Below, one piece after another: positions 5,728 to 57,298 of a stretch of 58,520 nucleotides of DNA. The translations under genes were made by a program, and so were the position numbers. The DNA is taken from IMG/VR virus record IMGVR_UViG_3300044859_000807, positions 1 through 58,520 of that record. One strand, given 5' to 3'. The stretch comes from a virus. Position 1 is the first letter of the stretch. Each line of letters begins with the position of its first letter. Below the pieces are notes generated by a model. The model searched no databases and was not told where the DNA came from. It saw only the letters and a program-made list of their open reading frames with translations.

Positions 5728-6651
5728 ATGATATATACACAAGAACAATGGCCCAAGAATAAAGATCTAAAGCCTTCTATGATGTCTCTTGATCAGAAGA
5801 AACTAAGGATTAAGTCTAAAAAGAAGAAATATACTAAAGAGACTAAGATATGTAACCAATGTTTTAAAGAGCAAGATATTATAGAGTTTTATCTTAAAGA
5901 CAAAAAATACAAGAGAAGAGATTGTAAATGTAGAGATTGTAGACTTAAAAATAGAGGAGTTATTGAAATAGGTAAGCAGAGATTTGCCTTTAAGATAGCT
6001 AAGAAAGGTTTTAGAAGATGCACTGTATGTAAAGAGACAAAACCTTTACATTCACATTTTCCTAAGCATAAATCTGAGTATCTAGGTATTTCTAATACCT
6101 GTAAAGATTGTAATAGTACATTACACGATTCTTATGCAAAGAATCAACGTGACACCATTGGAGACTTTTATGTAAGGGAATACGGCAAGCTTCAAGGTAT
6201 AACAAGATTTGGACCTAAAACCTTGCAGAGATTAAGAAATGAAATCATAGCCAATAGACAAGAGAAAGAAAGGATAAAGTATACCCTAGATGGGAAAGGA
6301 TTTACTAATGTAGAAGAGTTTGCTAGATATGTCTCTAAGAATTATGATGTACAACACCATGCTGTTGTAAAGAGAATAGAGAAGGGATGTACAGAGGCTG
6401 AATGTATTATTCCTGAGAAAGAGTTCCGATCTCTAAAGAGCGGAACCAATCTTGGTCAGATCAAAGCTACTAATTGTAAAACAGGTGAGGTATTACTCTT
6501 CAAAAACTCCAAGGATAAAGAATTACGTAAGATGTTCTCTGCAGATACTATTACAAGATATCTTAGAAGCGGAGAAGAAATTATATATCTTAGACTAGAT
6601 AAAAAGAATAGATACAAAAGTGGCTATAAACTCGAAAGAATAAAAGATTAA
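5728..6651 (+). CDS. Zinc-ribbon homing-endonuclease-like protein, 307 aa
   Basis: Cys pairs form zinc ribbons in the N-terminal half: CNQCFKEQDIIEFY with CRDC (about residues 42-71), then CTVCKETKPLHSHF with CKDC (about 99-130). This CxxC...EFY/HFP...CxxC layout is typical of the DNA-binding part of phage HNH/EndoVII-like endonucleases. A lysine/arginine-rich centre and a C-terminal segment with an ARYVSKNYDVQHHAVVKRIE helix-turn-helix-like stretch follow, as in modular homing enzymes (NUMOD-type). A complete HNH catalytic motif is not obvious, so activity is uncertain. It sits alone between two non-coding, structured stretches, as mobile genes often do. Confidence 0.55.
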   Translation: MIYTQEQWPKNKDLKPSMMSLDQKKLRIKSKKKKYTKETKICNQCFKEQDIIEFYLKDKKYKRRDCKCRDCRLKNRGVIEIGKQRFAFKIAKKGFRRCTVCKETKPLHSHFPKHKSEYLGISNTCKDCNSTLHDSYAKNQRDTIGDFYVREYGKLQGITRFGPKTLQRLRNEIIANRQEKERIKYTLDGKGFTNVEEFARYVSKNYDVQHHAVVKRIEKGCTEAECIIPEKEFRSLKSGTNLGQIKATNCKTGEVLLFKNSKDKELRKMFSADTITRYLRSGEEIIYLRLDKKNRYKSGYKLERIKD

Positions 6652-6778
6652 AAGCTTTCCCAGATGTGCTTAGACTGGGCCTCATTTAAGAAGCGAATGG
6701 TATATAGAAGTAGGGTTAGTCACCTATGGAATATACAAGTCCTATTCTATATGACCTATAGAGGGACGAACTCATTTA

Positions 6779-6872
6779 ATAATAGACCATAGTGCATGCC
6801 AATGACTCCCTACCTGCTGTGGGAAACTACTAACCAGAATCGTAGGTGAGGCTAAACACTATGGACTATTAT
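6779..6872 (+). ncRNA. Repeated structured element, copy B
   Basis: TAATAGACCATAGTG (6780-6794) pairs with CACTATGGACTATTA (6857-6871) with one A-A mismatch. The inner edges are GTGCATGCC and GGCTAAACAC. The interior carries CCTAC/GTAGG (6809-6813 with 6842-6846) and a GGGAAAC segment. Confidence 0.55.
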
Positions 6873-7033
6873 AACACATTTAAAACATTACCTACTGAAG
6901 ATAAACAATAAGTGACCATAAACAGTTTACCTACCAATACTTATTTAAAATCTTGCAAATAGTTGTAAGTCCCCTCAGTTGGGCAGTAATATAAGAAGTC
7001 TCGCCTTTTTATCCTTTTTGCATACTTATTTAA

Positions 7034-7111
7034 TAATAGACCATAGTGCATGCTGAGAAGAAGTCGTAGGGGAAACCCAGGGGCTTGAGGGCTAAACACT
7101 ATGGACTATTA
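7034..7111 (+). ncRNA. Repeated structured element, copy C
   Basis: TAATAGACCATAGTG (7034-7048) pairs with CACTATGGACTATTA (7097-7111), sharing copy B's A-A mismatch. The inner edges GTGCATGC and GGCTAAACAC are kept, while the interior (about 40 nt) differs and contains GGGGAAACCC, a GAAA-type hairpin. The upstream flank ATTTAATAATAGACC is also shared with copy B. Confidence 0.55.
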
Positions 7112-7352
7112 TGACTTTGACAGCGGTGTCAAGTGTTTATTGCTACACTATAAAGCAATACTCAGTGGATTAAAGGTTTATTCCTTGAACTGAGTATAAT
7201 AAAAGAATCCAGGTGGAATCACGGTAGAATCAGCCGGCCATTTTAAGATTGACTTCAAGAGGAGGTAAGACTCCTAGGCCCTGGTGGAAAGAACGCGTGC
7301 CTCAACAATCTAGTCTACAGGTACCTCCTGTAGGCAAGCGCATTATAACATT

Positions 7353-7404
7353 AACTATTACCCAATAAATCTACAGATATACAAACGGGGACTGTAGAAT
7401 AGTT
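7353..7404 (+). other. Two-part hairpin just upstream of the ribozyme candidate
   Basis: AACTATT (7353-7359) pairs with AATAGTT (7398-7404), and CTACAG (7371-7376) pairs with CTGTAG (7392-7397). The two 3' strands are contiguous. It may form one folded unit with the hammerhead candidate that begins 34 nt later. Confidence 0.45.
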
Positions 7405-7437
7405 AAACTTTAAACATTTAAACTACTAAAGTTTTAA

Positions 7438-7490
7438 ATTGCACTGATGATTCCTATAGGGGATGAAATAAGCTTAGGCTTATATGCAAT
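7438..7490 (+). ncRNA. Candidate type I hammerhead ribozyme
   Basis: All core parts are present in order. Stem I is ATTGCA (7438-7443) with TGCAAT (7485-7490). The CTGATGA core is at 7444-7450. Stem II and its loop are at 7451-7464 (TTCC with GGGA). GAAA is at 7465-7468. Stem III ATAAGC/GCTTAT closes on TTAG (7468-7483). A7484 is the expected cleavage nucleotide (H17). Stems II and III are closed, so the open stem is I (type I). The weak point is a U-U apposition at the base of stem II where G-C is usual. It lies in a non-coding region about 160 nt upstream of the 7648 start. Confidence 0.6.
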
Positions 7491-7647
7491 GCATAAGGTT
7501 TTGTGAGTATACTTCATTCGTAAGAACTCACCGGTACATTCAACCGTGGTGGAGAGGCTTAGAGCTTCTCTACCTAAAGGGTATAATCAACTCAACAATC
7601 AATTCAAACTTAAAACTTTTTGGTAGCAAGCAACCATACCCACATTT

Positions 7648-8568
7648 ATGAGACATAATCTCGCAACAACAGGTTTAAGCTTATCACAAGCTAGCAGTAT
7701 ATCAAACCTATGCTTTCAAAGAGCAAATATGATATCACAAGCATTGTCAGGTATTAACAATGCTCACCGTACATTGAAGATAAGTGGTGAAACTTATGTT
7801 CATGTAGCAGGTAAACCGGTACCAAAAGAGTTAGCAGCTCTTCTTCAAGAGAAGGCAAAACTGCACGCAGCTCAGGCTTTCTTGATGACTAACATCAAAG
7901 CCAAGGACGGGTTATTAGGAGAGATCAAAAGTAGGCAGTTTGTGCCTTCAACGGATGCTCCAGAGAATCCAACTATGAATGCATTCAAACCTACACTCCT
8001 AGTACAGGAGCAGTGGGGATGGGATCAGCTTAGCCAAGCTGAGTACGCAGAGTTCCTTGAGCAGGAAGCTTACGCTTCTCACATAGGTCAGTTTATTCAT
8101 AAGGATTCAGTTCTTGACACTTTACGCAATGAGTTGCCTAAGGTTAAGTCATTAGACTGGATAACTGTGAGAGATGGAGAACGCACACCTGTAAAGGTAG
8201 AAGTTCACCATACTCCTGAAGAGCTATTAGCTCATCATGAGAAGCTGGCCAGCTTACACCGTACTCATGAGCAAAGGGTAAATTACTTCAAAGCTAAGGT
8301 TAAAAACTTAGTAACTGAAGAGAATGCCCGCATCTCTAAGGAGAATGCTCTTGGACAAGCTGAAGTAAACAAGCTCAATGAGAAATTGAGACTTGATTAC
8401 ACGAATGTGTATCTTACATATTTAGAGCTTGTGAAGGTGGAGCGTGAGGAGTTTGAGGCTGCACGTCAAGCAGAGATACAAAGCACGGCTGCTTTGAGAA
8501 TCTCTATTGACCCTAGATTTCAGGATACCATTGACAACTTCTTAAAGAAGTTAGATCCTGAGTCTTAG
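7648..8568 (+). CDS. Hypothetical alpha-helical protein, 306 aa
   Basis: A largely helical protein beginning MRHNLATTGLSLSQASSISN. A coiled-coil-rich C-terminal half (about residues 190-275) contains LLAHHEKLASLHRTHEQRV and a run of charged heptads. Codon use is somewhat less AT-biased than in the neighbouring small genes. No enzymatic motif is visible. It is preceded by a long untranslated leader containing the hammerhead candidate and several hairpins, so its mRNA 5' end may be set by RNA processing. The length and helices could fit a structural or DNA-organising protein, but nothing identifies it. Confidence 0.65.
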   Translation: MRHNLATTGLSLSQASSISNLCFQRANMISQALSGINNAHRTLKISGETYVHVAGKPVPKELAALLQEKAKLHAAQAFLMTNIKAKDGLLGEIKSRQFVPSTDAPENPTMNAFKPTLLVQEQWGWDQLSQAEYAEFLEQEAYASHIGQFIHKDSVLDTLRNELPKVKSLDWITVRDGERTPVKVEVHHTPEELLAHHEKLASLHRTHEQRVNYFKAKVKNLVTEENARISKENALGQAEVNKLNEKLRLDYTNVYLTYLELVKVEREEFEAARQAEIQSTAALRISIDPRFQDTIDNFLKKLDPES

Positions 8569-44000: not shown

Positions 44001-44381
44001 TGCTCTGTTAGCATTGTTATATGCATCTTTAATAAATATGTATATAGAATCTACACCTTCTGCAGCCTCTATATTTTTGATAAGATCTTGTAGTTTTTTT
44101 TCTTTTGTTTCTTGATCCCTTACCACTTTTTGCTGTAGAATAGCAAGTTGTTTATTAACAAAAACTTTGATAGAACCAATAAGCTTGCCAAAAGCTGTGT
44201 CCTTTTCAGGATCAATATCAGGAACCTCTTCTTTTTCTGCTTCTGGTTCACTGTTAAGATCTTCATTATCAGCAAAACCTCTTTCCTCCCATAGCTCTAA
44301 AGCTCTTTCTCTATTACCATTGGTTTCTTTTAGTATGTCTTTCCACTCTTGTGAGGATTCATTAGGACAACTATTTAGCAT
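41052..44381 (-). CDS. Large virion (probably ejected) protein, 1109 aa
   Basis: It begins with MLNSCPNESSQEWKDILKET and a segment NRERALELWEERGF, typical of short cargo-type openings. Long coiled-coil segments (about residues 80-420) follow, then a hydrophobic helix near residues 990-1010 (ATIIITSTALIAILMAAG), and a C-terminal part with RMRSETFAYISLPDAYRVVK. This architecture is that of the very large proteins coded next to the RNA polymerase polyprotein in crAss-like phages, which are packaged and probably ejected into the cell. Its start overlaps the end of the 4307-aa gene by 7 nt. Confidence 0.75.
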   Translation of the reverse strand: MLNSCPNESSQEWKDILKETNGNRERALELWEERGFADNEDLNSEPEAEKEEVPDIDPEKDTAFGKLIGSIKVFVNKQLAILQQKVVRDQETKEKKLQDLIKNIEAAEGVDSIYIFIKDAYNNANRAKKQLEDLIKNKDAYDRKDLMGKMLAISDFINGYSILDELNNADLKEYFMQRVSIKIPEGELTPQQLVSAAIATKNDIKARYINQGIPLMADFLLGYTTELGATILDQIDTLNKRIKNLAFENLSDKKKEERAKEYQDKIDKLQSFSLNKKTLVEALRSFTSDTGVLSFLMDPLISSEDSVLALFAKAVKSQLENARMKDDDNLKYVGKAFDNYKASNTANRDNPAKFNEGIYETVTVTYTDKNGEKKTAERIDFVQKYDQEKFKQARKAFRKSLGEAPKLSEVPTKQEKIKLKEYISKVAAWNRENTEPKPKEEIDKIIAAKEKQRNANLITEEEYNKWKKSVMYTDKFGNTTYKRELSQPAKKYISTKWLAMYDVNDKPKNNKGEYHKALLKIYFEAQDKLPASKRRGFRVPSVPKSDLERAIANGLIDLTKQNFSDAINVKVYDPEFGLAGLGETEAKFLPVHYTQAMNAENVSLDLAKSVLLFAAMANRYEALNEIHSEISMFQTIIGDRKIAETNSKGEPILDAFANKQGYVEYIKQNGEAYSKKHVDAFIDMVVYGEMQKAEEILGVSLSKITNIGTGISAVTTIALDVLKGVANNLQGNIQLIIEANSGEFFNKKNLALGKVEYMKELPGILADFGKSYPESFLGQLINRYDPMQGTYKDHYGKDVTGSVASKLFRTNTLFFNQQFGEHEIQVSCMLALMDATTVTAKDGTQMTLLNAYKKFGVTGVAENTDFTEKKRQALQNRLHALSKRMHGVYNDFDKGTAGRYSLGRLATMYRKHLVPGYMRRFKSLSMDQELGTITEGFYRTFWNTFVRDLRDYKFNVAQNWSTYSAFEKAQIKRVIAEATIIITSTALIAILMAAGDDDEDLKKNYAYNFTLYELIRMRSETFAYISLPDAYRVVKSPSAMTGTLERAIKFTDQFFFTWDPEELEFQKKSGIWNQGDNKSWAYFLKLMGYSGYNIKPEEAVESFKGTLNK

Positions 44382-47300
44382 AACTTATCTAGTATTTTGT
44401 TTATTTTATTTAAGTCTTCTTGTGTTTTAACAGCCTCCAAGTTACTAATAATATCTTTTACATCATAACCTTTTTCAGCTAATAGCTCAGTTAAGTTTGT
44501 TTGTCTAACAGCCTTATTTATCTTTTTAAGTAGTTCTTGCTTTTTGTTTACAATATCTGGCTCTACATCTGTAGTAGTAGGTTGAACAGCTGGTTGTGTA
44601 GTAAGTTTAGCTGGTGCAGTTGGCATTTCGGGCTCTAAATCAGCGGCTCTTCTGAATGTAAAAGTTACAGTGTAGTTACTAGTAACTGTACCATCAGGTA
44701 ATGTAATTGGAGGAAAACTTGAATCAGTTTTTGGTGCTTCAATAACATCATGTACTGCTTCAAATCTACCTTTACCATCCATACCAAATGTATAAATATC
44801 ACCATTACGTAATGTAAGTGTTTTAGGATTTACCATTTGACCGGCTCCTCTTACTGCTTTACCTCCGTTATCATCAACTCTTACTTTATGTTCATTACCT
44901 AATACATATACTACAACTGGATAACCTTTAGCAGTATTAGATTCATCAATATCAGTATGTCTATATAATTTTGTACCCTTAGTATATATATTATTTAAAG
45001 CAATGTCATAGTTAGACATATCAATACCTAATGTTTTTTCTATATGTCTTTTTAAGAAATCTAATTCTTTAATGTTTGGTACTGGTGTGCCATCATTATA
45101 TTTAGAGTCATAAAAATAATAAGGTTTAATAGGTTGTAATTTACCAGTAGCATTAAAATCTACTTGAGCTGGTTGAACTTTTAATTTTTCTCCTGTAACA
45201 TTTTTGGTATTATTACCTTTCCATTGCCATCCATAACTAAACATAAGATTAGCTGTGTTACTACCATTTTCAACATAAGCATTTTTCTTAATGTTGTCTG
45301 ATATTGCATTTACTAATTTGTTATCAAACTCTTTAGTAGGATTTGTTGAAGCTTGTACTACACCATATTGAGGTATAACTTCCTTAACTTCAACACCAGT
45401 AGATGGTTGAGTAGTAGAACTCTTAAGTTTATCAAGAATCTGAGATCTCTCAGCAGCTTTTTTGTATACCTCATTACCAGTAGATAATGAGAATATTTTA
45501 TTCTTACTATCTACAACAAACATCTTATTGTTAAACTCTACTTTAGGTAAAGTTTTTATATAACCTAATTTGTCTATGTTAGGAGTTCCTGTAAACTTGG
45601 TACCATCAGGATCAGTAAGTTGTGCTTTTCCAGCAGCATTAATATTCCATAATAAATATGGCTTTTCATTATAAGATACTACATCACCTGGTTGAGGAGT
45701 CTTTTCTACAGCAGCTGGTTGAGTGATAGGTTGAGCAGAAGACTTATTAGCAATAGCTGCTTTTAATTGTTCTCTCCAATTAGCATCTGCCATGTTAATA
45801 GTAGGTATACCTTTTCTTCTTGCCATTTCAACAGCTTGCCCTGTACCACCTTTTGGTCTTAAAGGATCTTTTGTTTCTTGAGCATAGAATAATACAAAGT
45901 CTACTGTACTATCAAGATTTTTACCAAAGATTTGGTTAGTATTTCTAGCCATAAGCTTTACTGCTCCTGGTGTTAATCTATCTGGTGCAGGGTGTATTTC
46001 TTTAACTATACTGTTGGACTTTTCAGTAACATTTTCATTATACTTATCAACAGATGTAACACCATTAATAGTTTTTCTTATACCATAAGGACCAAACAAA
46101 GTTTTGTTTTTACTTCCATCTGAGAAAGCTTTATCTGCACCTTCTTCATCTAAACTTGTTTCTTTATTTTTAAAAGTAAAGCCTGTTTGTAAAGTGTAGC
46201 CTAAACCATCAAGATAGTTAGCAGCTTTAGTCATCAGATCAAGAACTTCTTTTGGAGTTTCTCTAGATCCTATACCAGCATAAGTCATAGTAGGTGTAGC
46301 AGATTTTCCAGGAAGTGAATCAAACACCGGTCTTGTTTTATCTGTAGAAACTTGTGGTTGAATGTTTTGTGTAGGTTCAGCTAGTTTAAACTCTATTTGC
46401 CATGCATTATCAAGTTCTGGTCTTACTTTATTTTCAAAGTAATCTACAGACCAACCTTCTAACTTAGACCAAGACTCAGGATTTTTATCTGAACCTTTCA
46501 ATGGATGAAGAGCTTTTGTAACAACAACATCAACTGTTCTACCATCAGCAGATTCCCAAGTTATTATATCACCAACCTTAGCACTTTTCCAATAGTCAAA
46601 AGCTTTTTTATTACTATATCTTGTAGTAGCTGTTCTTTCACCTTTAATTATTGCATCAAAGGTTGTGTTACTTGTAACATCAGATCTCTTATTTTTACCA
46701 TAAGACATTGTCATTTGTCCTGATAATCTATTAACTGGCTGAGTAGTAGTAGTAGGTAGAGCAGGTGCTGTTTTTATAGCAGGAAGAGGAGCTTCAGATA
46801 TACCTGTCTCAAGGTTTACATCTCTAAGATATATCTCACCGGTTACTTTATCTACTAAGTCATATAAGTTCTTGCTATTAAGCAACCACTTAGTCATGTT
46901 ATTATTAGTAAAGAATGTTTTAGGTAAGGTGCCTTTGTTTTTATCTACCTCCATTTTGAAAGCTGCTAGATCACCATCAGATATTATCTTAGGGTTAGCA
47001 ATCACTTTTGTAGTTTCAACACCCGGGATGTTTGCTGTAGATGGTTCAACCTTAGCTACTTTTTTGCCACCAAAGTTGTTTACATTTACTACAATCTTTT
47101 TACCTGTAGCTTTAAGTCTATCTGTAGCTACATGATAGTCAAGTATAGCCTGATCTACTTCATCAGCTGTTAAGTATGTATTTTGAAACTTAAACAAGTC
47201 AGAAGGACTCATTAAGAATATGGTATCTTTATTACCATTTCTTAGTAAGTTTACTATAGGATCATTAGCATCTATAGTAACAGTTCTACCATTCATAGTA

Positions 47301-50300
47301 AAGGTATCCATCTCAAATATATCTTGCTCAACTTCTTTTAAGAATGGTTGCTCATATAAGTTAGTATTAGCTACAGGCAAGTTAAGGGTAGGTTGTTTTA
47401 CTAATAAACCTCTGTTTCTTAGTGGTTTCTTACTTCTGTTAACTGAATTCTCTATAATAAATAGTTCATTTATACCACCCAAGATCTTCTTAGCATCTTC
47501 TTTATCTAATCTACTTAAGAAGTTACCGGATGCTCTTTCCATTATCTCTTTGTATTTATCATAAGGCATAACAGATGATAAAGAGAATTGGCTTGAGTCC
47601 ATACCTGATTGTAAGAAAGCATAGATAGGAAGCTTTGCAAAAAAGTTACTTACATAAGCATTAGCTTTTGTTGCTTGTGTATTCTCTCCTAGTATCTTAA
47701 ACTTACCAGGATTAGCTAAGTTTGTCCATTGATTAAAGTAGTCATTTATAAGACCCCCATCTAAGTTAGAATAGTTCTTAAGTTGAAAGTTACTTATACC
47801 GGCTAAATCACTTCTATTGGAAATACCTTGTGGGGCAAACTGTTGTAGTATAGAGTAGTTAGTATTATCACCTATTTCTTTATAGTTTTGGATAATATCC
47901 ATAAGCTCTCTAGCTATTGTATTATCACCAGATCTAAATAACTGCCAGATATTATAAGTATTTTTAAGAGCTTGGTTAGCAAGATAATCTTCATAAGTCA
48001 TCTTGTTTAATCTCTCATCATACTCTTCTTGTGATTCAGTACTTGTTTGTTGATATACTCTTTGATCTGTCTCAATAAGTCTTGTTCTTCTAAGCTCAAA
48101 TTCTTTAGTATTTAAAAGGCTAGCCATAGGAACAGTTCTTCTTAAGTATTCTCTCTCAAGAGTGAACTCAATAAAGTCTTGTCTTATTTTAGCTACAGAT
48201 TTTAAATATGCTTCACCATCTTGTGAGCCTCTGCTAAACTGAAAAGCTGCAGGGTTTATAGGAGCTAGACCACGACTTTTATAAGAGTCAAGACTTTTAC
48301 TATAGATAGAGTAATTTTCTTCATCAAAGTCTTTATTAGCTTGATCTAAGAAAGCTTGTGATATTTGTCTACCCTTGTATGTTTTGCTTTTAGGATCATA
48401 TTGTCTTAACTCATTAGCAAAAATATATTGTGCTAAAAAGTTCTTAAACTTTATAACATAAGTTTCAGTATCATAGCCTGTAGTCTTTTTGATATCAGTC
48501 ATTTTAGTGTAGTTCTTTGTCTGATCAAGAAGAAAATCATTTACTATTTTACTATCTCTTAGTTTAAACAATCTACTAAACAACTTTCTAGCAAGCTCCT
48601 GTATAAAGAAAGGAGAAATAATACTTTTATATCTTATAAAGTCAAAAATACCATAATCAAGAGATCTTGACTCAGCAACAGCATTTACTTCTTCAATCTT
48701 AGCTTGACTAGAGAATAAATCACTTACTTTGTTAGTATCCGGGTTGAAGGCCTTCTTCATGTCATCATAGTCCTTAATAAGATCTTCTATGTATAAGTAC
48801 TGTAAGAAACCAGCAACTTGTTCTTTATTAGATAAGTCAACATCTTGTTTAGCTATAGCATTTAAGTTTCCTTCTGTAAAGTACTCAGGCTCATATAGTT
48901 CTTGTAGACCATTATAGAAACCGTGTATGTTACCTGTATCAATTACATTACCAGAATTTATCTCTATACTAACTAAGTTAGCAAAAGTACTAGGTGAAAA
49001 GTTAAAGTTAAGACCTATCTTTTGTAACATCTCTGTTCTTACAGCTTTTTTAGAATCACCTGGTATGTGTTGGTAACCATAGATAAGCTTTGAAAAAACA
49101 GATTTCTGTTTGTTCTTTTCAGCTACATAAGCTCTTGATATTGGATTATTTACAAAAGCAGCAATATGCTCAAAAGGGACACCTGCTTCTAGCATGAATA
49201 AAACCTTAGGTACTACATCTGTATTACCCTGTAAGTAAGCTACAAAAGGATCATTACCAGCATCTACCAAACCATTCATTAACTGATTTATAACCTCAGC
49301 TATGTCATGTTTGTCATTAGTATCTATTATATGCGATAGTGATATGGCACCATCAAGTTTGTTATGCTTAAGGTTTAAATCTATAGGTATAAACATATCC
49401 TTTGATTTAACATAATTAGCTTGTTTTTTACTCCAAGTATAACCAGTACTGGCCATAGATTTATTCATCTTAGCACCAGCTTGGTTAAGTAGAATATTAA
49501 TAGGATTATCTACAGCAGCAATACCTAAGGAGTCTTTACTAACAGTAAACTCTTGATGTTTTTTATTGTTATAATCCTCTCTAAAGATAACACCTGGTAC
49601 AACACCTTTAGCTACTTTCTTACCTGTAATTAAAGACTTACTATAATCTGTTTCATCATCAGCTTCTTGGATATACTCTTTCATATTATCAGCAATTGGC
49701 TTAATTATATTAGTATCATTAGGAGAAAGTAATGATGCAGCCTTTGCAGGTAACTGAAGTATGTTTACAATATCTTCTATTAATCTATTTTGAATAGCTG
49801 ATATATAGTTGTTCTTGTGTTCTTGAGCATCGCTTAGTTCATCATAAACACCGGCTAGCTCACTTTTTTGTTCATACATGTTAGCTAAACCTTCTTCAAC
49901 ATTTTTAATATCTTCAAGAGTAGCTCCTTTTATTTCACTGTTATAGATCTTATATGCTCTTTTAAAATTCTTTAATACAGCATCCATGCCAGGTTGTTCT
50001 AGAGTTTTTATGATATCTCTATTTTTACCTGTTAAAGCTTTAAGTTGTTCTTCACTTAAAGTATTAGTCATGGTTTTAACATCTTTGAATATAGCTTTTC
50101 TAAACTTGTTAAAAGAAGGACCTATATCCATCCACTTAGCAGACTTCTCAGTCTTGAATAACTCAATAGCTTCTTTAGTCTTTTTATACTTATTAAGCTT
50201 TTCTTTTAAAGTTTCTATCTTTTTCTCTAAAGCTTCTTCTGACATGTTATCTTTTAATAACTTACCAGTACGGGTTATGTATGGTAAGTAAGTAGTCATC

Positions 50301-53300
50301 TTATCTACGTCAAAGTCAGTACCAGACTTGGCAACAAGCTCAGCTGGGATAATGATAATAGGACCAGCATCGGGACTTAAAAACTCAACTACTTCACCAA
50401 ACTCCATAGAGTTGTCTCCCTGTACAGGAATCCTAACACCTGTTAGTCTTAGCTTTTTAAAGTTTTCATCATCAAGCTTCCACTCTTTTACCAATAACAT
50501 CTCATTAAGTCTGTCAAGACTAGCTTCAATATCTAAAGACTTAGTTTCTTTACCATTTTCATCTTTAGTAGTTTTGTATACAGCAATTTTAATTTTGTTT
50601 TTGTTCTTATCTAGAGCTGGTACATATTGACCTTTTTCATTTTTAACATAGTAAATAGTTTGGAAAAGATTTTGATCCATCTCTCTAAGAGCTCTTTTAA
50701 ATCCAAAACCTATATTGTTTTTCTTGCCGGCTAGATCTACTATATAAGAAGGTAAACCGTTAGTACTAAAGTAATTATACTTTTCTTGTTCTTCTCTTGT
50801 AGCATTTCTAAACTTAGGGTTTTGCATTAAAGCTGAGGATACCTCAACTAAAGGCTCACCTCTAAGTTTAAGTCTTATAAGTCGGTTGTTTATAACAGAC
50901 ATTATAAGTTTTTCAAATCTTGCTGCAAGAGGGCTTATACTAAAGTCTATAGTGTTATAGTTAGTATCCGTTTGTAGAATAGATATCTCATGATCACTAA
51001 AGCCTTGTTCTTTAAGTTCTTTTATTAAGAAAGTAATCATTTTTTCCATAGCTTCCGGACTAGCTACTGCTTTTTCAACATCTTCTTCTGTCCAGTTTAA
51101 ATCATCTAATAGATTTTTATACTCATGATATACAAGTCTATCTAAACTATCTTTAAAGTTTGTTACAAGATCATGAAACTCACTTTCTTTTCTTTTTTGT
51201 GCATCAGTTAGTTTATCCCATTGAGCTTTAGTTCCTTTATAGTCTATAGGTAAACCATTCTTGTATAATCCCCCAGGTAATAACTTTCTTAACTGGGTAG
51301 AAAATGTAGAAAATTCTTTGAATGTGCTGTTTACATCAGTCTGATTTTTAAGATATGTAACATATACACTATTTTTAGTAAACTTTATTTTATCTTTTGG
51401 TAGGATATCACTTGTATCACCATTGTTGTATATCACATCTCCACTAACATCAGCACTAGGTTTTATATGAGATCTCTTAGAACCTGACTCAAATAATGCA
51501 TAGTCAATATTTTGTTGCATCATTGCTAGATGCATTTGTTCTGCAGGGTAGTTTTTTATAACAGTTGGAATAAGCGGAAACAAAGAGAACTTGTGGAAAG
51601 CTTGTACCGGATATCTACCAGTTTCAGTAGCTAAATTACCATTATACTGAAGCTTGTATACAGGGAATAGATCTGATAATTCATCAGCTCCTAAAACCTG
51701 ACCTCTTACAATTTTCATGTATGCATCTTCTTGTGCATTACTCCATTGACCTTCTACTCTTTTAAGTATTCTGTAAGAGTCAAATGTTATCCAACCTTGT
51801 CCATCACCATCCTTAATCTTAGCATATGGATTCATCTTGCCGCCATAAGTATCATAAGTACCATCTGCTTTTCTAGCTCCTGTTCCTATTTTACCATCCG
51901 TGTCTTGTCCATACAGAGCTATATTTAATGCATCACCTTCAAGACCTTTTTCTTTAAACATCTTCTTGAAAAGATCTCTATACATTTCAAAGTACACAGA
52001 ACCTACTTGGCTCTCTTTTATTATAGCCGTGTTGTATATACCATTATACTTTGTTACTTCAGTGCTACCATTTTCTTTTTTAATAGCATTTTCTTTAAGT
52101 AGTTTTTCCTCAAGAGGTCTTCCTACTTTAGTGTTTACCCAATGCTGAGTAAGTTTATCTACAGCAAATACTCTACCACCAGATTGTGATCCTGGAGTAC
52201 GCTTAGGTGCCTGATCTTTAGAATGATCAAACTGAAAGCCGTCTCCTTGTAGAAGCAATGTTGTTTCTGTCTTATGTAAAAAGTTATTTACCATATAAGA
52301 CATCATTGCTGCATCTTTTATATTAGAGTTATAGTTATCACCTAATGCTTGTATTTGATCAGCAGTAAGTTCTTTAAGTATAATAGTGCTTAATGTTTTG
52401 TTTATAGAATTAGGTAAGACAGCTGTTTTACCAAAGGTTTTTTCAAACAAGTTTTTGTTGTACTCTTTTACAAGCTTTTCAAAGTATGTTTTGATGTTAG
52501 CATCTATCTTCTTTTTTAAAGCTAGATTATCTGACATATTTAAAAAGTCCATAAGACTCATATTAGATTCAGCAAACTTCTTAAAGAACTCAGCAGATGC
52601 TAACTTTTCTTTAAGATTGTCTTTAGAGTCTAGCATTTCAGAAAAGATTGTAAACTCTTCTCCTTTTTCAAAACCTTTTATGTTTTTATAGTACTCAGGA
52701 GCAGCTTTGATCATAGCTATCCTTCTGATCTCTCCTTCTAACTTAGGATATAATATCTCTATGGTTTTATCCATACCATCATATCCAGCTACATTTACAC
52801 CATCTTTATTCTTTAAGAATGCAGAAGTATCTACAAACAAGTAGTTTGTTTTCTTATTAGTGTATGTAGTAATGTTGTCAATCTTTAAAGAATAGTAAGA
52901 ACTCTTATCACCTGGTAAAATACCTTGCATAAATCCTGCAGTTAAGGTTGAGATAAAGTCTGATATAAACTTATCAGTAGCATTCATCTTAGAGTATGTA
53001 ATACCTATAGTAGAAGATTCATCTTTTCTATCAACATTAAACTGTGAACCAGATAAGTCAAAGATGTTGATATTATTACTAATTCTTTTACCAGAAGGAT
53101 CAAACATTGACTTCATGTACACAGAACCATTAACCTCAGGATTGTTAGCTGGGTTTAAGTAGTTCATATGCATAAACTCAGGATGATCACTAGAAAGATC
53201 ACCTTTTTGTTTAGCATTTTGTAATGCTCTAACCTTTTGAGTATCCGTGCTGTTTAAAGAAAACACAGATTTCTTTTCACCATCTGGTGTAAGTCTCATA

Positions 53301-56300
53301 CCACTAGCATATTCTTCAGAGAAGTTAGCTTCTAGATTAGCAAGACTGTTAACTGTTCCACCACTGTTTGTTATAGGTTCTTTGTTAGGTAATGATTTAC
53401 CTGTTCTAAAAAGATCTATAGGAGCAGAAAGTATCTTTTGGATTTCTTTTAGCTTCTCTTCTTTTTGTAAACCTTTATAGTTCTTTTCTATATCATTTAT
53501 ATAGTCATCTATTTTTACAATAGTCTCAGCTAAATATCTAACATCATTAGGTTGAAGAAACTCTCTAATCTCTTCTGTATCAGAAAGATTAATACCTATA
53601 CTATTAAGAAATGGTACATAGTCTTCTTTAGCTACCGTTACAAATAGTTTACCGGCATCATTATATTTCTTTTGTATGTAGTCTTCTACAACATTCTTAG
53701 TATTGATATAGTTAACTTTATCTTTGTTCTTAGCAGTATGTCTATCAGCTTCTTTTTGTTGGTATGCAGATTGCCAGTTTCTTATAATGTTTTGATACTC
53801 AGCACTTGACTTACCAACCTTAACTTCTATACCTTCATCAGTTTGTGTAATGTTTACATTAACTAGGTCTATTCTGAATAAGTTAAAAGACTGAACAAGT
53901 TTCATCCACATCTCACCTGTAACACTACCTTCTGTTATGAAGGCAGCCATACTTTGTTCTTCTGATAAAGTTATTTCTTTATTATCAGTATCTAATATTG
54001 TTTTTAACTTAAAGATCTTGTCAAGTAACTGTTTGAATAATGGAGATACAGTATTACCTGCAGTTTTTATTTTGTTATAAAGACCCATGATACTGGTTTC
54101 ACCAGAACACTTGTCCATCATAACTCTCCAAAAAGGTTTGAATTCTATAGGCTCAGGAAAACCTAGTTCATTAAGAACATAGCTTCCATCTTTATTTTGT
54201 TTAAGTAAACTCTTAATTATATAAACAGTAAGCTCATTAGCTAACTTCTCAGATTCAGTGCTGCTATTTCCAGCATCAAAGTTTCTACCTATTAAGTTGT
54301 TCTCAAGTTGTTCTTCATCTAAGTCAACAGCTTCTTCTTTGCTTATTTTAAACTTAACAAACATGTCTTTGAACTCACTGTTCTGTCTATGGAAAGCAAT
54401 GATAGAATCTGTAACATTTGTACCTTCTAAAATCTGAGTTATGTTACCATACATGTAAGGCTTTGTTGCTCTGGTAAGAACAGATATTTTATTATCAAGT
54501 ACAGCTTTTTCTACAACTTTGTCTGCAGGTAAAGCTTTTAATTGCTTTAAAAACTCTTCTCTCTTATCACTAAGTTCAGTTAAAGCTTTTTCATATACTT
54601 TCTTTAGTTCCTTTGGACTTCTGAATATCAAGCTTGCAGCACTGAGAGATCCAGACTGTACTTTTTCAGTAGTTGCTTTAGATATAATACCATCTATAGT
54701 TTTACTTACAAGTAAGCTTTCAGATAAAGATAGCACATCTTCAGGATGTTCTTTATTAACAACACCAGAGTTTAATAAACCAAACTCACCATTTTTAATA
54801 TTAGATGCATAAGGAAGGAGTTGTTCTTGAGACTTTGCTGTATACAAAGTGTTAAAGATCTCACCTAATACACCTTCTGATCCAGGGTTAGAGTAAATGT
54901 TTATAGCAGTTGAACCTCCAACTAAAGCCTTTAAAGCTTTCCATATTCTGTCAAATATCCACTTAAAGATATTAGTCTTTTCATTCTCAGTTTTAAACTT
55001 GCCTTTGTTCAAAGCATATGTTCTAAACTCTTCAGCTATAAACTCTTCTAACTCTTTTCTTTCAGCTTTACTAAACTCAACATCAACAAGTTCAATATTA
55101 CCTTGACCAGTTGCTTTAGCTACTTTAAAAGATCCTGGAAGTTTAGATACTGCTTTATAGAACTTAGTTCTCTCACTATAAGTAAGATAAGTCTGGCTAA
55201 AAGCATGCCAAGCCTCATGATACACATGAGAGTAATTTGCACCCTCATATAAAGTAATCACAGAGTCACGGAAGCTAGCCCATGCTTCAGAGTTTACAGC
55301 ATTTCTTAATGGGTTTAGAGTAAAAAGAGGTTTTACAACACCATTCTCATCTTTATAAGTAGCTTTAGACAAAGCTGATTCTTCCCACCAAGCTTTTGCT
55401 TCAGCATCTTCTTCAGGAGTAACTATGCTATCTAGTAATCTAGAACGTAGTAACTCATCATAGTCTTCCTCTGCTTGTTTTTTAGTTACAGGTACTTCTT
55501 CTTTTACAACTTCTTTTGTAACTTCTTCTACTTTGTCAGCAACTTCTTTTGCTGTAACTACAGGCTGAAATCTAAAGTAACCATTAAGTACCATAGGTAG
55601 TTTGGTTCTTTCATCACGGACAAGTCTAGGATACAACCTAGGACTTATAAACTTGTAATAATCTTCATCAGACTTACTAACATTAAAAGCACCATTGTCT
55701 GGTGTTAGTTTAAAAGCAGTATAACTATTTTTATCATAGCTCTTCTTGTGAAAATGTATAGTAGCATTTTTACCCAAGAAGTCTTTTAATACTCTTCTAG
55801 CTGCTTCTTTATCAGACAGATCTAAAACATTACCACCTAAGTTAATTTCTAACTTTTGGTCACCATTTACAAGGGTTGTACCTATTGTATAGTTTTTTGC
55901 TTTTAATTGTATGTATTGACCAACATTGTCAACCTTGTCTATATCAGGTACAGCTTTATCACCAACCTTAAGATCTTGTGTAAGTATATCTACTATGTTA
56001 TTTAAGATGTCAGCATCTTCCGCTTTTTCTCCTATTTTATTTGGATTCTTTAAACTAATAAGATTATCTACATTAGGAAACTGTATAGCTGGTAGATTCT
56101 CTGGTTGACCACTAACATTTTCTACAGTAAATACTATAGACTGTTTTGCTTTGTCATTTACATCAAACTCAGATAAAGGAAAAGTAAGTTTTTTTCTAGT
56201 TTCCTCTCCAACAATGTTATCTACATTTTGGGTTGCCCCTTTAAAGCCTCCTGTTATATCTACAGGAACAGGTTCACCAAATCTTATTTTTCTTTTAGCT

Positions 56301-57298
56301 GCTTCTATTTGTTCTAGTTGGTTACTGATTACTTTATCAGCTTCTTTTTTTGCATTTTCTATTTGCTCAGCTGTCATGTTAGTTCTATCTAACATAGACA
56401 TCATACTTGCTTTTATAGCAGCTTTGTGCTTTTCAAAATCTTTATTTTTTGGGTTTGTTGTTTTAAGCAAGAGGTATATAGGTCTACCATTATCAATATC
56501 ACCTATAGTATTATCAGGTTTAAAATATAATATTTCTCCTGTCTTGCTATCAGTAAGTACAAATGATAGTATCTCATAAGCTAACTGACTTTCTCTATCT
56601 AGGCGGATCTTACCAGGAATGCTTCTTTCAAACATCAGTCTTCCTGCAAAACCTGTATGATTACCAAAAGTAACTTTACTAAAGTCATTATCATCAGGTC
56701 TCTTAGCAGCCATTATACCGGATAATACTCCTTGGTAGAAAGCAGCATCTTCATTAGACTTAGATGCAAAAGGCAAGTTTGTTTTTTTATCTATCTCAGC
56801 TCCACTTTGTGATGTAGCAAAGAATCCGGCATTAGAAGCTAACACAAGAGTATCTACAGTAAGACTTGTACCTGGTACAGATAATAGCATAGTTGCTTGA
56901 TCAGTAGGTTGGTTAGCTACAAATGTTTCAATCTCATCTAAACTCTTTATTGGTTTACCTAAAAGTATTGCAACAGCTCCTAGCTTATCTATAGAAGTAG
57001 CTAACTTATCTATTTCAGCACTCAAAACACCAACATCATAACCTTTAGTTATTAGATTTTTAAGACCTAGTTGTTTTTTGTTATCAGTAACAAGATCAAA
57101 TATCATCTGTGGTACATGATAAGCCATACCCAAAGCTAGATTCTCATCATTGCTTTTACCAAGAACATCTTTGTAGATTGTGTCTACTATTTTCTTGTAA
57201 TCAAAAGTTGGGTCATTAGTGTAGCTCTTTACTAGTAAAGCATTAACATAACTTTCTAGTTTTTCTTTTAGGTTATTTTTACTTAAATCACAAACCAT
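44375..57298 (-). CDS. Giant virion RNA polymerase polyprotein with C-terminal enzyme modules, 4307 aa
   Basis: One 12.9-kb gene with several domains recognised. (1) HEAWH near residue 694 in VYHEAWHAFSQTYL, a zincin-like metalloprotease site. (2) RNA polymerase catalytic barrel: RIPVQGDNSMEFGEVVEF, then KSGTDFDVDKM with the Asp triad starting at D2328, as in crAss-type two-barrel polymerases. (3) ASCH-like domain, about 3530-3640. (4) SLOG (DprA/LOG-like) domain, about 3670-3843, with AGIGSRETP and PKGGTGQAVEMA. (5) A small beta domain, about 3866-3960. (6) AlkB-like 2OG-Fe(II) dioxygenase, about 3985-4225, with H4114-T-D4116, H4183 and R4216/R4217. Linkers rich in Pro, Thr and Gln separate the C-terminal modules. 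Much of residues 1-650 and 800-2200 is unassigned. The protein is probably packaged, ejected and possibly cleaved by the zincin. Confidence 0.85.
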   Translation of the reverse strand: MVCDLSKNNLKEKLESYVNALLVKSYTNDPTFDYKKIVDTIYKDVLGKSNDENLALGMAYHVPQMIFDLVTDNKKQLGLKNLITKGYDVGVLSAEIDKLATSIDKLGAVAILLGKPIKSLDEIETFVANQPTDQATMLLSVPGTSLTVDTLVLASNAGFFATSQSGAEIDKKTNLPFASKSNEDAAFYQGVLSGIMAAKRPDDNDFSKVTFGNHTGFAGRLMFERSIPGKIRLDRESQLAYEILSFVLTDSKTGEILYFKPDNTIGDIDNGRPIYLLLKTTNPKNKDFEKHKAAIKASMMSMLDRTNMTAEQIENAKKEADKVISNQLEQIEAAKRKIRFGEPVPVDITGGFKGATQNVDNIVGEETRKKLTFPLSEFDVNDKAKQSIVFTVENVSGQPENLPAIQFPNVDNLISLKNPNKIGEKAEDADILNNIVDILTQDLKVGDKAVPDIDKVDNVGQYIQLKAKNYTIGTTLVNGDQKLEINLGGNVLDLSDKEAARRVLKDFLGKNATIHFHKKSYDKNSYTAFKLTPDNGAFNVSKSDEDYYKFISPRLYPRLVRDERTKLPMVLNGYFRFQPVVTAKEVADKVEEVTKEVVKEEVPVTKKQAEEDYDELLRSRLLDSIVTPEEDAEAKAWWEESALSKATYKDENGVVKPLFTLNPLRNAVNSEAWASFRDSVITLYEGANYSHVYHEAWHAFSQTYLTYSERTKFYKAVSKLPGSFKVAKATGQGNIELVDVEFSKAERKELEEFIAEEFRTYALNKGKFKTENEKTNIFKWIFDRIWKALKALVGGSTAINIYSNPGSEGVLGEIFNTLYTAKSQEQLLPYASNIKNGEFGLLNSGVVNKEHPEDVLSLSESLLVSKTIDGIISKATTEKVQSGSLSAASLIFRSPKELKKVYEKALTELSDKREEFLKQLKALPADKVVEKAVLDNKISVLTRATKPYMYGNITQILEGTNVTDSIIAFHRQNSEFKDMFVKFKISKEEAVDLDEEQLENNLIGRNFDAGNSSTESEKLANELTVYIIKSLLKQNKDGSYVLNELGFPEPIEFKPFWRVMMDKCSGETSIMGLYNKIKTAGNTVSPLFKQLLDKIFKLKTILDTDNKEITLSEEQSMAAFITEGSVTGEMWMKLVQSFNLFRIDLVNVNITQTDEGIEVKVGKSSAEYQNIIRNWQSAYQQKEADRHTAKNKDKVNYINTKNVVEDYIQKKYNDAGKLFVTVAKEDYVPFLNSIGINLSDTEEIREFLQPNDVRYLAETIVKIDDYINDIEKNYKGLQKEEKLKEIQKILSAPIDLFRTGKSLPNKEPITNSGGTVNSLANLEANFSEEYASGMRLTPDGEKKSVFSLNSTDTQKVRALQNAKQKGDLSSDHPEFMHMNYLNPANNPEVNGSVYMKSMFDPSGKRISNNINIFDLSGSQFNVDRKDESSTIGITYSKMNATDKFISDFISTLTAGFMQGILPGDKSSYYSLKIDNITTYTNKKTNYLFVDTSAFLKNKDGVNVAGYDGMDKTIEILYPKLEGEIRRIAMIKAAPEYYKNIKGFEKGEEFTIFSEMLDSKDNLKEKLASAEFFKKFAESNMSLMDFLNMSDNLALKKKIDANIKTYFEKLVKEYNKNLFEKTFGKTAVLPNSINKTLSTIILKELTADQIQALGDNYNSNIKDAAMMSYMVNNFLHKTETTLLLQGDGFQFDHSKDQAPKRTPGSQSGGRVFAVDKLTQHWVNTKVGRPLEEKLLKENAIKKENGSTEVTKYNGIYNTAIIKESQVGSVYFEMYRDLFKKMFKEKGLEGDALNIALYGQDTDGKIGTGARKADGTYDTYGGKMNPYAKIKDGDGQGWITFDSYRILKRVEGQWSNAQEDAYMKIVRGQVLGADELSDLFPVYKLQYNGNLATETGRYPVQAFHKFSLFPLIPTVIKNYPAEQMHLAMMQQNIDYALFESGSKRSHIKPSADVSGDVIYNNGDTSDILPKDKIKFTKNSVYVTYLKNQTDVNSTFKEFSTFSTQLRKLLPGGLYKNGLPIDYKGTKAQWDKLTDAQKRKESEFHDLVTNFKDSLDRLVYHEYKNLLDDLNWTEEDVEKAVASPEAMEKMITFLIKELKEQGFSDHEISILQTDTNYNTIDFSISPLAARFEKLIMSVINNRLIRLKLRGEPLVEVSSALMQNPKFRNATREEQEKYNYFSTNGLPSYIVDLAGKKNNIGFGFKRALREMDQNLFQTIYYVKNEKGQYVPALDKNKNKIKIAVYKTTKDENGKETKSLDIEASLDRLNEMLLVKEWKLDDENFKKLRLTGVRIPVQGDNSMEFGEVVEFLSPDAGPIIIIPAELVAKSGTDFDVDKMTTYLPYITRTGKLLKDNMSEEALEKKIETLKEKLNKYKKTKEAIELFKTEKSAKWMDIGPSFNKFRKAIFKDVKTMTNTLSEEQLKALTGKNRDIIKTLEQPGMDAVLKNFKRAYKIYNSEIKGATLEDIKNVEEGLANMYEQKSELAGVYDELSDAQEHKNNYISAIQNRLIEDIVNILQLPAKAASLLSPNDTNIIKPIADNMKEYIQEADDETDYSKSLITGKKVAKGVVPGVIFREDYNNKKHQEFTVSKDSLGIAAVDNPINILLNQAGAKMNKSMASTGYTWSKKQANYVKSKDMFIPIDLNLKHNKLDGAISLSHIIDTNDKHDIAEVINQLMNGLVDAGNDPFVAYLQGNTDVVPKVLFMLEAGVPFEHIAAFVNNPISRAYVAEKNKQKSVFSKLIYGYQHIPGDSKKAVRTEMLQKIGLNFNFSPSTFANLVSIEINSGNVIDTGNIHGFYNGLQELYEPEYFTEGNLNAIAKQDVDLSNKEQVAGFLQYLYIEDLIKDYDDMKKAFNPDTNKVSDLFSSQAKIEEVNAVAESRSLDYGIFDFIRYKSIISPFFIQELARKLFSRLFKLRDSKIVNDFLLDQTKNYTKMTDIKKTTGYDTETYVIKFKNFLAQYIFANELRQYDPKSKTYKGRQISQAFLDQANKDFDEENYSIYSKSLDSYKSRGLAPINPAAFQFSRGSQDGEAYLKSVAKIRQDFIEFTLEREYLRRTVPMASLLNTKEFELRRTRLIETDQRVYQQTSTESQEEYDERLNKMTYEDYLANQALKNTYNIWQLFRSGDNTIARELMDIIQNYKEIGDNTNYSILQQFAPQGISNRSDLAGISNFQLKNYSNLDGGLINDYFNQWTNLANPGKFKILGENTQATKANAYVSNFFAKLPIYAFLQSGMDSSQFSLSSVMPYDKYKEIMERASGNFLSRLDKEDAKKILGGINELFIIENSVNRSKKPLRNRGLLVKQPTLNLPVANTNLYEQPFLKEVEQDIFEMDTFTMNGRTVTIDANDPIVNLLRNGNKDTIFLMSPSDLFKFQNTYLTADEVDQAILDYHVATDRLKATGKKIVVNVNNFGGKKVAKVEPSTANIPGVETTKVIANPKIISDGDLAAFKMEVDKNKGTLPKTFFTNNNMTKWLLNSKNLYDLVDKVTGEIYLRDVNLETGISEAPLPAIKTAPALPTTTTQPVNRLSGQMTMSYGKNKRSDVTSNTTFDAIIKGERTATTRYSNKKAFDYWKSAKVGDIITWESADGRTVDVVVTKALHPLKGSDKNPESWSKLEGWSVDYFENKVRPELDNAWQIEFKLAEPTQNIQPQVSTDKTRPVFDSLPGKSATPTMTYAGIGSRETPKEVLDLMTKAANYLDGLGYTLQTGFTFKNKETSLDEEGADKAFSDGSKNKTLFGPYGIRKTINGVTSVDKYNENVTEKSNSIVKEIHPAPDRLTPGAVKLMARNTNQIFGKNLDSTVDFVLFYAQETKDPLRPKGGTGQAVEMARRKGIPTINMADANWREQLKAAIANKSSAQPITQPAAVEKTPQPGDVVSYNEKPYLLWNINAAGKAQLTDPDGTKFTGTPNIDKLGYIKTLPKVEFNNKMFVVDSKNKIFSLSTGNEVYKKAAERSQILDKLKSSTTQPSTGVEVKEVIPQYGVVQASTNPTKEFDNKLVNAISDNIKKNAYVENGSNTANLMFSYGWQWKGNNTKNVTGEKLKVQPAQVDFNATGKLQPIKPYYFYDSKYNDGTPVPNIKELDFLKRHIEKTLGIDMSNYDIALNNIYTKGTKLYRHTDIDESNTAKGYPVVVYVLGNEHKVRVDDNGGKAVRGAGQMVNPKTLTLRNGDIYTFGMDGKGRFEAVHDVIEAPKTDSSFPPITLPDGTVTSNYTVTFTFRRAADLEPEMPTAPAKLTTQPAVQPTTTDVEPDIVNKKQELLKKINKAVRQTNLTELLAEKGYDVKDIISNLEAVKTQEDLNKINKILDKLC

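Follow-up and report, generated by a model that had tools for sequence, protein, structure and literature searches.

What hammerhead ribozymes do in phages is still an open question (PMC6155905). The window analysed here, a stretch of 58,520 nt of viral DNA (IMG/VR record IMGVR_UViG_3300044859_000807), raises it at positions 7438-7490. There, the first-pass annotation had placed a candidate hammerhead, which could either mature a structured RNA upstream or set the 5′ end of the mRNA downstream. Two points were at issue: whether the element is a hammerhead, and what a cut at this place would do. The element is very likely a type I hammerhead of the U10.1-U11.1/A17 kind, predicted to cut itself after A7484 within a longer phage transcript. 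The cut would most likely define the 5′ terminus of a structured leader, or else free a small structured RNA.

Anatomy and homologues of the ribozyme

Rereading of the sequence upheld the proposed order of the parts and all their coordinates on the + strand. The 5′ strand of stem I (ATTGCA, 7438-7443) is followed by the core CUGAUGA (DNA CTGATGA, 7444-7450), which supplies C3, U4, G5, A6, N7, G8 and A9. Stem II (TTCCTATAGGGGAT, 7451-7464) begins at its base with a U10.1-U11.1 mismatch and continues with U-A, C-G, C-G and a possible U.G; a pair is expected at 10.1-11.1, and the window ribozyme has U.U. The second core segment, GAAA (7465-7468), provides G12, A13, A14 and A15.1 (7468), the last of which pairs with U16.1 (7483) around stem III (TAAGC-TTAG-GCTTA, 7469-7482). 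Stem III has 6 bp when the A15.1-U16.1 pair is counted, and stem I, whose 3′ strand is TGCAAT (7485-7490), also has 6 bp. Stem I forms the open end and the topology is therefore type I. From hammerhead anatomy, cleavage is predicted after A17, between 7484 and 7485, and A7484 agrees with the rule that position 17 is any base except G (H17). With regard to a possible loop contact between stems I and II, the loops of the homologues L003 (UCAAG) and L084 (UAAAG) are similar to the UNAAU loops frequent in type I, and that of the window ribozyme is UAUAGG.

The ribozyme recurs in other phages. In L002 the copy is identical. In the relatives L003/L004, stem I is ATTGCC/GGCAAT against ATTGCA/TGCAAT in the window, a compensatory change of A-U to C-G, and stem III is ACACATA/TATGTGT against ATAAGC/GCTTAT, with most pairs changed and pairing kept. 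In L084, an unrelated phage with an unrelated gene context, stem I (GTTAA/TTAAC) and stem III (ACGAGC/GCTCGT) are wholly different from those of the window and again paired. This homologue was found by a pattern search with stem II fixed, so the independent support from it is confined to stems I and III. The core is identical, and the U.U-based stem II unchanged, in L003, L004 and L084. Among the window, L003 and L084, covariation is seen in stems I and III. Stem II hardly varies in this trio and covaries only in the wider set of phage hammerheads. That not a letter of the core changed, although the pairs of stems I and III were replaced by compensation, implies selection on the active fold. 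Judged by its sequence, the window hammerhead is very probably active.

The downstream leader and the possible role of cleavage

The sequence match to the relatives covers 7436-7613 and nothing upstream. This conserved block (+ strand, 76% identical to L003/L004 by blastn) extends from the ribozyme to beyond the third of three hairpins, located at 7503-7531, 7532-7546 and 7548-7574 (12 bp), all on the + strand. The hairpins differ from those of L003 by one, one and three compensatory pairs, respectively. Altogether, 25/25 pairs are kept in both distinct sequences, five of them by compensation, and slid-structure controls pair at 38-44%. The observed score was reached by 17/500 shuffles and, as there are only two distinct leader sequences, the covariation evidence for the hairpins is thin. 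No family was matched in an Rfam search of the hairpin RNA, and a tRNA-like nature was rejected, since neither ARAGORN nor Rfam found a tRNA in it.

The predicted cut site lies 163 nt before the next gene, with the three hairpins between them and no obvious terminator between the hairpin RNA and the gene. This gene (7648-8568, + strand) encodes a protein of 306 aa with 92 relatives in IMG/VR. Pfam and PHROG searches with the protein gave no match, nor did annotated phages, whether searched with the 1 kb region as DNA or with the 306-aa product. Its structure model is confident, and the fold search matched only an uncharacterised phage protein. In other relatives, tRNAs, a tmRNA or GOLLD RNA lie near the same gene, which makes the locus a stable-RNA neighbourhood. 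For instance, GOLLD RNA and a tmRNA are found there in L009 (6528-6942) and L010 (5950-6338). In L011/L012 (761-821), a hammerhead-like sequence of type III, in which CTGATGA is followed by an additional U, is located 3 kb upstream of the relative of this gene. Elsewhere in the window, positions 44375-57298 of the − strand encode a protein of 4307 aa, residues 3670-3852 of which form a DprA-like domain.

Transcription from left to right would produce an RNA that folds and cuts itself after A7484. In a type I arrangement, almost all of the catalytic fold would remain on the upstream fragment, which would end in a 2′,3′-cyclic phosphate. The downstream fragment would start with a 5′-OH at U7485, carry the three-hairpin RNA (7503-7574) first and, if the two are co-transcribed, run on into the gene at 7648.

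Between the two functions proposed in the first-pass annotation, the downstream one, namely the setting of the 5′ end of the leader, is favoured on the sequence evidence because conservation runs downstream from the ribozyme. Among the hammerheads listed from the viral loci collected, 252/280 lie between genes, and for 218/236 the following ORF is read from the same strand. A major early transcript of haloviruses HF1/HF2 has its 5′ end within 3 nt of a hammerhead cleavage site, and prophage hammerheads have been proposed to cut long transcripts into shorter mRNAs (PMC3088659). As the ribozyme heads a leader that is conserved and covaries, the 5′-end hypothesis becomes open to testing.

Alternatively, the ribozyme could make the 3′ end of an upstream non-coding RNA (6650-7440). 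Being of type I, it would then remain on that RNA and cap its 3′ terminus, which would bear a cyclic phosphate. Two copies of a hairpin element, both strongly folded, lie in the roughly 1 kb upstream, which has no ORF; this speaks for such an RNA, as do the tRNAs, tmRNA and GOLLD RNA near the same gene in relatives. In L003/L004, however, the upstream structured RNA is absent and the same ribozyme directly follows an ordinary ORF and precedes another small one; moreover, conservation sets in with the ribozyme and not earlier. An upstream product is accordingly considered unlikely, and the setting of the leader's 5′ end remains the preferred reading.

The two copies of the hairpin element (6779-6872, z -5.2; 7033-7112, z -4.2) share an identical long basal stem (AATAATAG.CCATAGTG / CACTATGG.CTATTAT) and differ in their apical parts. 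Outside the window, an exact match to this structured RNA occurs only in L082, an identical phage.

The stem II mismatch and the base at the cut site

The U-U at the base of stem II had been seen as a feature that might prevent the fold in all relatives. This concern did not hold: every close homologue retains U.U, which occurs in 125/485 of the phage and bacterial hammerheads among the matches listed, with the rest of the fold intact. The mismatch is the mark of a subclass and no bar to hammerhead membership. Natural hammerheads with a stem II starting in a U10.1-U11.1 mismatch are already described, and U.U supports the most cleavage of any mispair (PMC3088659). That survey at first discarded matches mispaired at 10.1-11.1 and kept only those with measured activity, and the U.U class was consequently under-sampled.

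The mismatch could still belong to a remnant or slow hammerhead, with an inherited fold and little activity, which now serves as a structured leader only. It disrupts the most conserved pair of stem II, and nearest-neighbour folding favours a slipped stem II, in which A9 pairs with U11.1, by ~1 kcal/mol in the window, L003 and L084. Against this, compensatory changes renewed stems I and III around an unchanged core, U.U recurs in at least 125 hammerheads, and it is the best tolerated mispair. A decayed ribozyme therefore seems improbable, more so than an upstream product, and a self-cutting hammerhead is preferred. As a general cause of U.U, a mere slip of the stem II register was rejected: a slip is possible in the window, L003 and L084, but U.U also occurs on the stems TCGC/GCGT, TACC/GGTT and TTGC/GCAT, which cannot slip likewise.

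The identity of the 10.1-11.1 combination is strongly associated with the base at the cut site. Hammerheads were collected from IMG/VR and GTDB genomes, with at least 333 unique sequences in a first set and at least 485 in the final one; most U.U sequences were retrieved with one stem II sequence. Among the 485 listed, 10.1-11.1 is almost always G-C or U.U and other combinations are very rare. In the first set (333 listed), hammerheads with G-C have C17 in 169 cases, A in 23 and U in 2, whereas those with U.U have A17 in 106, U in 11 and C in 7 (Fisher p 4e-52, the p values for the coupling being overstated because the sequences share ancestry). G17 was seen in only 1/333 of these descriptor matches. 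In the final set (485 listed), the respective counts at position 17 are 107 A, 11 U and 7 C for U.U and 52 A, 5 U and 284 C for G-C.

The split holds in type I (among the matches listed, U.U 22 A and 2 C vs G-C 13 A, 1 U and 114 C), in type III, in viral loci and in genome loci. It also survives clustering at 85% similarity (U.U 65 A, 8 U, 6 C; G-C 20 A, 2 U, 110 C). Within the 31 listed loci that carry both kinds, U.U is found with 32 A, 3 U and 2 C, and G-C with 59 C and 7 A. Hammerheads not selected by the search pattern show the same distribution (U.U 17 A, 3 U, 1 C; G-C 75 C, 11 A). Position 17 carries 0.53 bit of information on U.U, and the other positions tested carry at most 0.11. For a new stem II, xGCC/GGCx, the prediction was fixed in advance; its G-C arm gave 89 C, 22 A and 3 U, and its U.U arm was void, as the 7 matches hold no hammerhead.

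Tandem arrays with 5 to 9 hammerheads per contig were observed in L341 (4854-6809), L294 (2500-6501) and L162 (1892-6178). The array of L341, a Candidatus Paceibacterota contig, consists entirely of U.U hammerheads with A17 or U17.

The window ribozyme belongs to a neglected subgroup of hammerheads, with a mismatch beside the active site and an A at the cut site. Whether there are two natural active-site settings, each evolving as a unit, is to us an evenly balanced matter: one would be G10.1-C11.1/C17 and the other U10.1-U11.1/A17 (or U17), with the window ribozyme of the second kind. A metal ion binds the A9 phosphate and the G10.1 nitrogen (PMC7151607), and from this statement we infer a possible basis of the coupling. 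In G10.1, an N7 is available to the catalytic metal situated close to A9 and the scissile phosphate; U10.1 has no such atom, and an A at position 17 might compensate for this loss or alter the metal preference. A search of the open-access literature found no report of a coupling between 10.1-11.1 and position 17. The coupling joins two sites that are not base-paired to each other in the best studied small ribozyme and is the part of interest to specialists; the window ribozyme itself is new as a member, not as a kind.

Detection of phage hammerheads and comparison with known classes

The core strings alone (CTGANGA...GAAA) are worthless as evidence, with 4 matches in the window against 4.5 expected by chance. 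The full three-stem descriptor has one match. In 300 dinucleotide shuffles, 3 weaker matches appeared altogether and none was as good as 7438-7490. A covariance model (R1) built from 32 hammerheads of other phages, excluding the window and its close kin, has the same site as its sole match in the window (34.7 bits, E ~1e-6) and gives 35.8 bits to the ribozyme of L003/L004. The features that the sequence allows one to examine, among them the core, the covariation of stems I and III and the sole model match, support a hammerhead, and the annotated identity is borne out: as far as sequence can tell, the element is a real, conserved type I hammerhead.

The search with Rfam hammerhead models suggested in the first-pass annotation did not bring this support. 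None of the families RF00163, RF00008 and RF03152 matched the window ribozyme above its gathering threshold, and on a 1 kb slice the hammerhead was not called even at E 10. The best model, RAGATH-1-hammerhead, reached 14.3 bits on a 71-nt slice, compared with a threshold of 56.3. Other Rfam matches in the slice (T-box, CRISPR-DR51, snoRNAs) were all far below threshold and were rejected. At gathering scores, Rfam recovers 1/46 of the descriptor hammerheads in 12 phage loci and misses the other 45, so its silence here is uninformative. The missing Rfam call might suggest a fortuitous match or a hairpin RNA of a different kind, but this is hardly credible in view of the shuffles, the R1 score, the covarying homologues and this low recovery. 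Phage hammerheads are far commoner than the Rfam thresholds indicate.

With the type I hammerheads of bacteria and phages (RF00163; 2011 surveys, PMC3088659), the window ribozyme shares the CUGANGA/GAAA core, the A15.1-U16.1 pair, the three stems with an open stem I and an intergenic site in a phage. It differs from them by U10.1-U11.1 in place of G-C, by A17 in place of C17 and by its sub-threshold score in Rfam. The U10.1-U11.1 hammerheads of PMC3088659 share with it the mismatch from which stem II starts; a link to A17 is not mentioned there. The RAGATH-1 hammerhead (RF03152) has the hammerhead core in common with the window ribozyme, but the consensus of its model, the best-scoring one despite the low score, is C17, against A17 in the window. 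A further parallel is HHphage of haloviruses HF1/HF2 (PMC3088659), also a phage hammerhead upstream of a gene and thought to set the 5′ end of a transcript. HHphage carries unusual insertions in its core and is only 13 nt away from the start codon, whereas in the window 163 nt and three hairpins separate the predicted cut from the gene.
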